A stretch of 64,000 nucleotides of DNA, taken from NCBI GenBank assembly GCA_029891345.1, contig CM057002.1:60130777-60194776 (forward strand). The letters run 5' to 3'. The position numbers and the translations under genes were made by a program. Below are positions 10,439 to 56,115 of this stretch, in pieces. The notes under the pieces were generated by a model, which worked only from the letters and a program-made list of their open reading frames with translations, was not told the DNA's origin and ran no database searches. The stretch's first letter is position 1. Each line of letters starts with the position of its first letter. This DNA is from Dryococelus australis (Eukaryota > Arthropoda > Insecta > Phasmatodea > Phasmatidae).

Positions 10439-10854
10439 TAGGCTATTCATGCTAAAATGAGCACTGTTGAAAGCCCTGCTAAAGATTTACTTTTATGCAC
10501 GTTGTGTATCATTCCACCTTATGTAAGATTAAGATTTTCATGGGTCTCATTACTTTATTCATGCGTCGGTGAAGTGAAACGGTGAAATTATTAGAAAAGT
10601 AAATATTTTACAAATATGCTCAAGATTACACTCCGATGCGTTAAAAAACCAGAAAGTTAAAGAAATAATTTAAGTAAACAGTTACCCAACACTTTTTATT
10701 CGACGTTAAGATTCGGAACTACTTTCCCATCCATCGTTACCAACTTTACTGGGCCCATATCACTCATGGCACCGTTAAAATATCTGCAGGTCGGAACAGT
10801 GACTTTTTTCTAAGGTTGGTTTCGAAAGTGCTAACTTTATCGTGAACGGCCTTT
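10439..10854 (+). mobile_element. TA-flanked MITE, subfamily A (copy 1)
   Basis: The ends are TAGGCTATTCATGCTAAAAT and CTTTATCGTGAACGGCCTT, inverted repeats of the family AGGCTGTTCACGRTAAAGTG. TA dinucleotides flank the element at 10437-10438 and 10855-10856. It has internal homology to 45899-46324, 48314-48737 and 50733-51153. TA duplication and length suggest a Tc1/mariner-type MITE without coding sequence. Confidence 0.78.
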
Positions 10855-15948: not shown

Positions 15949-16145
15949 CTGTTATCGTGGGGTAGATAGAGCCCCAGCTGCTCAGGATCGCCCTGCTCTG
16001 CCAGGTAGAGGCGGTGTCCCTCGGCGCCCACGGCGGATGAGATGCAACCCGCCAGCTCCCACAGCACGTTACCCTGGCTGGGATTCCTCTGCAGGGAGCG
16101 CGTCAGCTCCTGCAGCATATGCCGCTTGTCCGCGTGCACGCAGAA
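15949..16145 (-). CDS. Exon C of the PDE10-type phosphodiesterase (start of GAF-A domain)
   Basis: This is a 197-nt GC-rich exon on the minus strand. The acceptor is TGTGTGTTGCAG|TTC at 16148-16146 and the donor is AACAG|GTTCGT at 15949/15948. It enters at phase 0 and leaves with two spare bases. The peptide begins FCVHADKRHMLQELTRSLQ and continues with VLWELAGCISSAVGAEGH and RLYLAEQGDPEQLGLYLP. The pattern ELxxxIxxAxxAxGxxLY matches the start of GAF-A in PDE10A ([20 protein letters not shown]) better than PDE11/PDE5, which have ADRCSLFL there. GAF-A contributes to dimerisation and cyclic-nucleotide binding. The rest of GAF-A, GAF-B and the HD-type catalytic domain should lie at lower coordinates, but I found no convincing next exon in 1-15948, so that intron probably runs past the window edge. 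A degenerate repeat array reaches the donor side of this exon. Confidence 0.88.
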
Positions 16146-39540: not shown

Positions 39541-39578
39541 CTTCCAGCGGGATAAACTCGTCTTGCGGCCGTTTTTAG
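39541..39578 (-). CDS. Exon B (38-nt microexon) of the PDE10-type phosphodiesterase
   Basis: This is a 38-nt minus-strand exon between acceptor TCTCTTACAG (ending 39579) and consensus donor AAG|GTAAGTC (39541/39540). Exon A ends with one codon base (G). Exon B begins CT, which gives GCT (Ala), and then reads KNGRKTSLSRWK in frame, ending at phase 0. That is the phase exon C needs for its FCVHADKR start. From memory, insect orthologs carry a very similar RKTSLSRWKFCVHADKR segment before GAF-A; this is recall, not a search. The peptide is basic with a possible kinase-type site (RKTS), so it may be a regulatory linker; that is inference. The exon is far too short to be called by ORF length and rests on splice sites, phase and peptide continuity. 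Confidence 0.78.
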
Positions 39579-43244: not shown

Positions 43245-43246
43245 TA

Positions 43247-43486
43247 TAGGCTATTCACGGTAAAGTGATCACTTTTGAAAGCCTCTCCTTTGGAATAATA
43301 TTCAATAGATATTTTTTATTTTACCATTAAAGGTTAATTTCAGAGTGCGATGGGATATACGCACTGCGTATGTTACCTACATATCAACATTTATTTTAAA
43401 AATGTGGTTAAAGGATAAAAAAAAAATGGCTGAAAGAAAAAAGTAACAAGGACCTGAGAAGTGCTCACTTTACGATGAACGGCCTA
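43247..43486 (+). mobile_element. TA-flanked MITE, subfamily B, abutting the exon A splice donor
   Basis: The ends are TAGGCTATTCACGGTAAAGT and ACTTTACGATGAACGGCCTA. TA flanks lie at 43245-43246 and 43487-43488. The right flank TA is also intron bases +2 and +3 of the exon A donor on the minus strand (G at 43489, T at 43488, A at 43487). The element supplies every intron base from +4 onward. It has internal homology to 55880-56115 (GGCTGAAAGAAAAAAGTAAC versus the inverse GTTACTTTTTCCTTTCAGCC). Confidence 0.82.
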
Positions 43487-43489
43487 TAC

Positions 43490-43678
43490 CTGGGGCGCCG
43501 GTTGAGTCGGGGCGCTTCTTGGCGCGCTGCATGCTGCGGATCATCCAGCGCTCCAGCTGCTCCAGCGGCACCTCCTCCAGCACCCACTGCTCCAGGAAGT
43601 CCGGCCGCGCAGACAGGAACCTCCGCACCAGGACCTCGCTCGCCAGAGCCTCCCCTTCGTTGCCGCCGGCCGACGTCG
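43490..43678 (-). CDS. Exon A of a PDE10-type dual-GAF cyclic nucleotide phosphodiesterase (N-terminal exon)
   Basis: This is an internal coding exon of 189 nt on the minus strand. It is strongly GC-rich in an AT-rich setting and fully open. The acceptor is ...TGTGTTGCAG at 43681-43679 and the donor is CAG|GTATAG at 43490/43489. It starts with the last two bases of a codon and ends with one spare base. The peptide contains FLSARPDFLEQWVLEEV followed by LERWMIRSMQRAKKRPDS. This resembles the short N-terminal helical segment before GAF-A in PDE10 and PDE11, where human PDE10A has a similar pattern (HPQVLDEF...VEKWLKRK). The family hydrolyses cAMP and/or cGMP in the cytosol; GAF domains bind cyclic nucleotides. 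The exon carrying the start codon is not identified. The donor lacks the usual G at +5 because a MITE begins at +4. PDE11 or PDE5 is the alternative family. Confidence 0.82.
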
Positions 43679-45898: not shown

Positions 45899-46324
45899 AA
45901 GGCTGTTCACGATCAAATGAGCACTTTTGAAATCAACCGTAGATAAAAGTCACTACCCCTACATGCAAATATTTAAATCCGGGGCAATGAGTGATATGCG
46001 CCTTGTAAAGTTGGTAACGATGGAGGGGAATTATTTCCATGTCTTAACGTCGAATTAAAAGTGTTTGGTAACCATTTGTGACAACACAACATTTTTGTTT
46101 AGCTTTCTGTTTTTTTTTTTAACGCCCCGAACTGTAAAAATGTGCAGATTTGATATATATTTACTTTTCTAATAATTGCTCAGTTCCACTTGACCGATGC
46201 ACGAATAAAGTGATGAGGCCCACGACAATGTTAATTTTACATAAGCTAAAAGAATACACAGCGTGCTTACAAGTAGATCTTAAGCAGGGCTTTCAAAAGT
46301 GCTCATTTTACCATGAACAGCCTA
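45899..46324 (-). mobile_element. TA-flanked MITE, subfamily A (copy 2)
   Basis: It starts AAGGCTGTTCACGATCAAAT and ends ATTTTACCATGAACAGCCTA. TA flanks are 45897-45898 and 46325-46326. Orientation is opposite to 10439-10854, as shown by AGATCTTAAGCAGGGC at its right side. Confidence 0.82.
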
Positions 46325-48176: not shown

Positions 48177-48830
48177 ACGATAAAGTGGGTACTTTTGAGA
48201 CCCTAGTTATTTTTTCCTTTCAGCAATTTTGTATCCTTGCGCCACCTCTTAACATAAATACTAGCATGTAACTAATAAACACAATGTGTATATTCCACCG
48301 CACTCGGAAGTTAAAGCCTGTTCATGATAAAGTGAGCACTTCTGAAATCAACCTTGGAAAAACGTCATTTCTCTTACCTGCATGTATTTTAACTGGAGCA
48401 CTGAGTGACATGCGCCCAGTAAATTTGGTAACGATGGACGGAAAGTAGTTCCATAACTTAACGTCGAATAAAAAATGTTAGGTAACAATTTGCGATGACT
48501 TAAATTATTTCTTTCGCTTTCTGGTTTTTTTAAATGAGTCTAATTATAAAAATGAGCGGATATGTAAAATATTTTCTGTTTTTAATAATTTCACAGTTTC
48601 ACTTGACCCACGCATGAATAAAGTGATGAGGCCCATGACAATGTTTATTTTACAAAAGGTGGAAGAATACACTAAGTGCATAGAGGTAGATCTTAAGTAA
48701 CGATTTCAAAAGTGCTTATTTTACCGTGAGCTACCTTTACCTGCATGGGGGCTAAAATAAAATATATTAATTGACTAATATTCCAAATGGGAGGGATTTC
48801 AAAAGGGCTCACTTTCCCGTGAATAGCGTA
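48177..48830 (+). mobile_element. Subfamily B MITE interrupted by a subfamily A copy
   Basis: The outer ends are TAGACTGTTCACGATAAAGT and ACTTTCCCGTGAATAGCGTA, flanked by TA at 48175-48176 and 48831-48832. Its two halves align with the uninterrupted copy 55880-56115: GTGTATATTCCACC and CTCGGAAG before, ATTGACTAATATTCCAA after. The interruption is 48314-48737. Confidence 0.82.
48314..48737 (-). mobile_element. TA-flanked MITE, subfamily A (copy 3), nested in a subfamily B copy
   Basis: The ends are AAGCCTGTTCATGATAAAGT and ATTTTACCGTGAGCTACCTT, with TA at 48312-48313 and 48738-48739. It is homologous to 45899-46324 in the same orientation, including AACGATGGA and GTGATGAGGCCCA(T/C)GACAAT. Confidence 0.84.
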
Positions 48831-50732: not shown

Positions 50733-51153
50733 AAGGCTGTTCACAATTAAGTGAGCACTTTTGAAAGCCCTGCTTAAGATCTACTTGTATGCCCGTTGTG
50801 TATTTTTCCGCCTTATGTAAAATTAACATTGCCATGTGCTTCATCACTTAATTCATGCGTCGGTCAGGTGAAACTGTGAAATTATTAGAAAAGTAAATAC
50901 TTTACACATCTGCTCGTTTTTGAATTTCAATATATTAAAAATAACAGGAAGTGAGAGAAAAAATGTAAGTTATCATAAATGGTTACCTATCACTATCTAT
51001 TTGATGTTAAGATATGGAACTACATTCCCTCCACTATTACCAACTTTAATGGGCGCCTGTCACGCTGTGCGCCCGTTAAAATATATGAGTTTATTAGCAG
51101 TGGATTTTTTTTAGGTTGATTTCAAAAGTGCTCACTTTATCATGAACAGCCTT
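50733..51153 (+). mobile_element. TA-flanked MITE, subfamily A (copy 4)
   Basis: The ends are AAGGCTGTTCACAATTAAGT and ACTTTATCATGAACAGCCTT, with TA at 50731-50732 and 51154-51155. It shares GAAAGCCCTGCTTAAGATCT and ATTCATGCGTCGGT with the copy at 10439. Confidence 0.84.
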
Positions 51154-55879: not shown

Positions 55880-56115
55880 TAGGCTGTTCACGGTAAAGTG
55901 AGCACTTTTGAGGCCCTAGTTACTTTTTCCTTTCAGCCATTTTATTACCTATAGCGAATTTTTAAAATAATTATTGCCTTGTAAGTAATAAACGCAGTGT
56001 GTATATTCCACCATACTCGGAGGTTTGCACCTAAGGCTACAGTAAAATATATTTATTGACTATTATTCCAAGTGAGGCGTCTTTCAAAAGTGCTCACTTT
56101 ACCGTGAACAGCGTA
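55880..56115 (+). mobile_element. TA-flanked MITE, subfamily B (intact reference copy)
   Basis: The ends are TAGGCTGTTCACGGTAAAGT and ACTTTACCGTGAACAGCGTA, with TA at 55878-55879 and 56116-56117. It is 236 bp and uninterrupted. Confidence 0.85.

Follow-up and report, generated by a model that had tools for sequence, protein, structure and literature searches.

The placement of a transposable element in the genome of Dryococelus australis provoked a question: what becomes of a 5' splice site when a transposon is inserted into the middle of its consensus? The window analyzed here comprises 64,000 nucleotides of contig CM057002.1 (C10:60130777-60194776), part of a genome of 3.415 Gb in 646 contigs. 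On its minus strand, exon A of what looks like an animal phosphodiesterase gene ends in CCCCAG and the intron begins GTATAGGCC. The last exonic base lies at 43490, the donor GT at 43489-43488 and the +3 A at 43487; +4, at 43486, is the first base of a MITE. The initial annotation had placed the TA target at donor positions +2/+3 with the MITE following from +4, and both the coordinates and the evidence on the TA duplication presented below bear this geometry out. It had also given 43247-43490 as the MITE. The element does lie within that span, which additionally holds the target duplication on the exon side, the donor G and the last base of the exon. The statement that the MITE supplies most of the donor was too strong: the host contributes six of the nine donor bases and the MITE three (+4 to +6).

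Features of the locus in window coordinates; a slash marks the boundary between exon and intron.
Feature	Positions	Strand	Remarks
Exon A	43490..43678	-	189 nt; phase 1/1; N-terminal segment like an assumed PDE11A-type motif
Donor GTATAG (+1 to +6)	43484..43489	-	GTA from host/target duplication, TAG from transposon
TA target duplication, exon side	43487..43488	-	donor +2/+3
MITE	43247..43486	-	240 bp; donor-side end TAGGCC... comes first on the minus-strand reading
TA target duplication, intron side	43245..43246	-	
Donor-like GT in MITE (AAA/GTGAGC)	43467..43468	-	best-scoring GT of 43740-43000; follows the TAA at 43472-43470
Acceptor-like AG in MITE	43430..43431	-	after pyrimidine tract (TTTTTTCTTTCAG); TTTCAG in 24/30 copies
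Exon B	39541..39578	-	38 nt; in phase with exon A; donor GTAAGT
Exon C	15949..16145	-	AG acceptor at start; end putative (CAG/GTTCGT); FCVHADKR...

We examined whether the inserted stretch has the properties of a MITE. Its termini form an inverted repeat (43245-43274 and 43459-43488) of 30 nt with 83% complementarity, counting the flanking TA, and it belongs to a family of high copy number and similar length. A 34-base terminal pattern had 7,454 exact matches genome-wide (3,796 + 3,658), a figure that may include longer sister repeats with like ends; the reversed control had none (0 + 0). Scoring 40 of 2,422 candidate places yielded 46 matches, a number that counts the focal copy and short terminal hits, and among the places listed the copies were mostly 220-243 bp long. 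A second full-length copy is found within the window at 55880-56115, with further pieces and terminal matches elsewhere in it. Against a consensus built from every aligned copy, with the focal one as a row, the focal copy departs at 29 of 235 sites. Against one built from seven close relatives that were chosen for their likeness to it, and that are each 3.4-6.0% off that consensus, it departs at 18 of 237. TA-target MITEs of the Tc1/mariner type, such as Stowaway, have a 2-bp TA duplication and terminal inverted repeats of about 30 nt, and are too short for a transposase; the focal element resembles them in these features.

The ends of the element were compared with those of 30 other copies: 29 loci of best-scoring matches plus the second copy in the window, a sample biased to likeness from which the focal locus (refetched as L010) was excluded. 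TA flanked the donor-side end in 26 copies, the far end in 27 and both ends in 23. At the donor-side end, position 1 was T in 27 of the 30, position 2 was A in all, and position 3 was G in 27; TAG occurred together in 24, TAGGC in 18 and TAGGCC in six. The end at +4 therefore belongs to the repeat family, as the initial annotation had assumed, and is not ancestral unique sequence.

Because intact copies read TATAGG...CCTATA, a TA duplication is indistinguishable from a TATA duplication at filled sites. One copy (L023), however, is nested in another repeat, of which 18 related stretches span the insertion site uninterrupted. There they read TA followed by A in 16 cases, CA in one and AAAAA in one, with TATA in none; in a subset of 11, all show a single TA. 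The target duplication of the family is TA. A TATA duplication, which would make the empty donor GTATAA, is ruled out by this nested copy. Two further nested candidates (L033 and L038) were left out of the comparison because the alignment at their junctions was poor. The window also contains copies of a repeat of about 400 bp (45911-46312, 48326-48727, 50749-51141 and 10453-10841) whose ends match the terminal repeat of the MITE; this repeat, the host of the nested copy, is likely a longer sister family of the MITE.

With the duplication fixed at TA, the donor before insertion can be read by joining the flanks with one TA. The result is CAG/GTAAAGG, compared with CAG/GTATAGG at the filled site; it is rebuilt from present flanks, the far one of which may have mutated since the insertion. 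Over the nine donor positions, the two differ only at +4, where A has become T. The initial annotation had the insertion removing +4A, +5G and +6T. That loss holds for +4A, but +5 and +6 are A and G in the reconstructed empty site just as they are now. The earlier account is thus partly supported: right on the geometry, and mistaken or unproven as regards the consensus bases said to be lost. Posteriors for the original bases, taking assumed donor frequencies as the prior, were 0.98-0.99 for A at +4 and 0.87-0.96 for G at +6 across all settings. Position +5 was less clear-cut, at 0.63-0.77 for A and 0.22-0.35 for G with divergences of 0.04-0.076, and 0.51 vs. 0.47 with a divergence of 0.12.

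These values leave some room for an original donor with +5G (e.g., GTAAGG) that the insertion destroyed, making the damage larger than the reconstruction implies; this is a variant of the explanation that we favor below and is compatible with it. G is the usual base at +5 of donors. Yet the present flank reads A, and with an original A no later change need be assumed. Moreover, the donor of a catalytic exon further along what is presumably the same gene reads CAG/GTAAAT by eye, so +5A donors seem to be tolerated there. We regard an original +5G as unlikely, though deserving of more weight than the other alternatives considered here.

How strong is the donor that resulted? Scored with assumed donor frequencies, which are not drawn from this species, the filled site has 1.01 bits, the empty site 3.99, the exon B donor 8.61 and the consensus 8.73. 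On the same frequencies, 267 of the 4,003 minus-strand GTs in the window equal or exceed the score of the filled site, 38 reach that of the empty site and two that of the exon B donor. The donor of exon A is weak by this measure, as had been expected. The energies of the U1 duplex were -7.7 kcal/mol for the filled and -8.3 kcal/mol for the empty site (-10.6 for exon B and -14.0 for the consensus). The two measures disagree on the loss at the donor, which is about 3 bits by frequency but little by U1 pairing energy. Comparing the filled and empty sites, we conclude that the insertion probably somewhat weakened an already imperfect donor, through a single base change.

The secondary structure of the element might offer a second route to weakening. 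Folding of a 256-nt segment comprising the MITE and its edges gave -61.7 kcal/mol, compared with an average of -42.4 for shuffled sequences (z = -4.49; 0/200 shuffles as good). In the minimum-energy structure, the hairpin has at its foot the U of the donor GU together with the bases that come next. We calculated the cost of opening positions -3 to +6. With exon lengths of 50 or 100 nt and 260-400 nt of downstream sequence, it was 4.0-5.9 kcal/mol at the filled site vs. 2.8-3.1 at the empty one. With 200 nt downstream, values of 2.7 vs. 3.0 (50 nt of exon) and also 3.3 vs. 2.4 were obtained. With 180 nt of exon, the cost was 6.0-7.9 vs. 0.1-0.3 already at 200 nt downstream, a difference that appears before the second terminal repeat enters the folding window. 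In these models, a contribution of the hairpin to the weakening is possible rather than established. The hairpin as sole cause was rejected, the effect being moderate and varying with the folding window.

All of this presupposes that exon A is an exon. It joins exon B and then exon C in frame, and is in phase 1 at both ends. Compared with an assumed PDE11A-type N-terminal motif it scored 57, with 0/2,000 shuffles as good; with an assumed PDE6A-type motif it scored 26, a value reached by 73/2,000 shuffles. Exons B and C match what we take to be an insect-type motif, and the gene name PDE11 is an assumption drawn from these motifs. Further along C10 on the minus strand are matches to PDEase_I at 60092579-60092791, 60089267-60089509 and 60086435-60086572, the nearest of them about 38 kb outside the window. 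The nearest solved structures to the first of these are PDE10A and then PDE5 (among the 60 of 141 matches listed). Downstream catalytic exons on the same strand fit the GAF-type class of phosphodiesterases (PDE5/6/10/11). From strand, distance and class, we infer that exons A-C and the PDEase_I exons constitute one gene.

Might exon A nonetheless be spurious, or real and unused? A search with exons A and B found no match in Pfam and five weak matches in the PDB, none of them a phosphodiesterase, which counts in favor of such a reading. Against this stand the open frame, the match in phase and an N-terminal motif (albeit an assumed one) that outscored 2,000/2,000 shuffles. We judge such an error very improbable. 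With its single genomic match, its length and phase, and its in-frame joins to exons B and C, exon A looks real. A MITE-free paralogue or retrocopy of the exon was also sought; the sole DNA match in the genome is the site itself, although a diverged paralogue could escape such a search.

Given a real exon, the next question is whether its donor predates the MITE. The donor GT includes the T of the target duplication, and the donor was probably already there. Alternatively, exon A might once have been longer, and insertion into a coding GTA might have made a new 5' splice site in the manner of half an Introner. The empty site would permit this, since it reads open for 15 residues past exon A, and Introners whose 5' splice site derives from the target duplication have been described (PMC9860276). 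But the empty site is already a donor-like GT in the top 1% of the window (38/4,003); a donor at this exact spot before insertion is therefore unlikely to be due to chance. Furthermore, the GC content, 0.71 in exon A, drops beyond the MITE to 0.47 over the nearest 30 bases and 0.39 over the nearest 100, and the score and this drop together support a pre-existing donor. The size of the intron likewise speaks against a donor made by the MITE: an Introner makes up the whole intron and has its two splice sites at its termini or close to them, but here the acceptor of exon B lies 3.9 kb away, before 39578. The two cases are alike in involving a non-autonomous DNA transposon with terminal inverted repeats and a 5' splice site overlapping the target duplication (PMC9860276). 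They differ in that the focal MITE borders a 3.9-kb intron on one side and probably inserted where a donor was already in place. Creation of the donor by the MITE seems to us quite improbable.

We consider it likely instead that a non-autonomous TA-target DNA transposon entered a pre-existing donor, CAG/GTAAAG, which survives, weakened but used. In this scheme, the element would have inserted at the TA occupying +2/+3. Duplication of the TA would have kept G-T-A on the exon side, allowing the donor to persist as CAG/GTATAG with transposon bases now at +4 to +6. The site would be weaker through the change of +4 from A to T and possibly because the hairpin's foot modestly sequesters +2/+3. Exon A would likely be included, though some skipping might occur, and skipping would preserve the frame given an upstream exon that ends in phase 1.

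Could such a donor act as a splicing switch? A weak donor and a hairpin might together lead to regulated skipping of exon A or to the use of splice signals borne by the MITE, an extension compatible with the reading just given. The length and phase of exon A would suit it, and the gene strand of the MITE carries the donor-like AAA/GTGAGC and the acceptor-like TTTCAG. The arrangement of these signals is less favorable. An in-frame stop, TAA at 43472-43470, follows exon A. Before that stop, the only in-phase GTs are the one at 43489 and, 9 nt further, GCC/GTTCAT at 43480; there are also in-phase GC dinucleotides, nine within exon A and one within the MITE (43483). Between 43740 and 43000, five GTs score above the actual donor (43468, 43628, 43376, 43324 and 43380): one lies in exon A out of phase and four in the MITE past the stop, so that 0/5 are both in phase to exon B and before the stop. 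Use of the MITE-borne donors past the stop would give truncated products. Frame-neutral skipping, for its part, is an assumption about the phase of the upstream exon. On the sequence evidence, we find a switch doubtful.

The motif of the AAA/GTGAGC site, AAAGTGAGC, lies near the donor-side end of the family's copies and is present in 24/30 of those aligned, as is TTTCAG. Together these motifs are a possible source of exonization elsewhere in the genome.

Is the insertion otherwise out of the ordinary? Alternative 5' and 3' splice sites are reported as the predominant MITE-related modes in mulberry, where MITE sequence overlaps the splice site as it does here (PMC6593561). The mulberry cases are described as exonizations and have transcriptome support (PMC6593561), whereas in the focal case a donor that probably existed already is cut between +3 and +4. 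Among the titles listed by literature searches on transposons and splicing, none described a MITE end at donor +4.

The number of opportunities for such a hit is large. A narrow pattern with the end of the focal subfamily had one match in the genome, and a wider pattern found 413 exact ends with the CAG/GTA context (CAGG before TA). With thousands of exact ends, and 413 of a slightly different pattern in this context, a hit on one true donor is no great surprise. We inspected 30 of the 413 (the first listed, all on C1) and found the open frames upstream to be mostly short; six of these loci were translated, and no protein was recognized by eye. Two pairs among the 30 had similar upstream flanks. 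The event is of a known kind and, taken by itself, is a chance insertion of a highly abundant element, a neat accident but an ordinary one. It nevertheless shows cleanly how a transposon with a preference for TA targets can insert into a 5' splice site and leave the GT intact, and the flanks allow the site before insertion to be reconstructed, albeit with some doubt.

A more ambitious reading is that the MITE end works as a regulated weak donor, with U1 pairing limited to CAG/GTA and the hairpin foot on +2/+3 together determining how far a frame-neutral N-terminal exon of a signaling phosphodiesterase is included. We would call this a long shot. If it were true, a family with 413 exact ends in the CAG/GTA context could tune donors elsewhere by the same geometry.

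The focal copy may have company. A copy of the terminal repeat (L046, in C10:60084500-60094400) lies beyond the second catalytic exon, where it reads CTAGGTATAGGCTG; it probably sits in an intron of the same gene.
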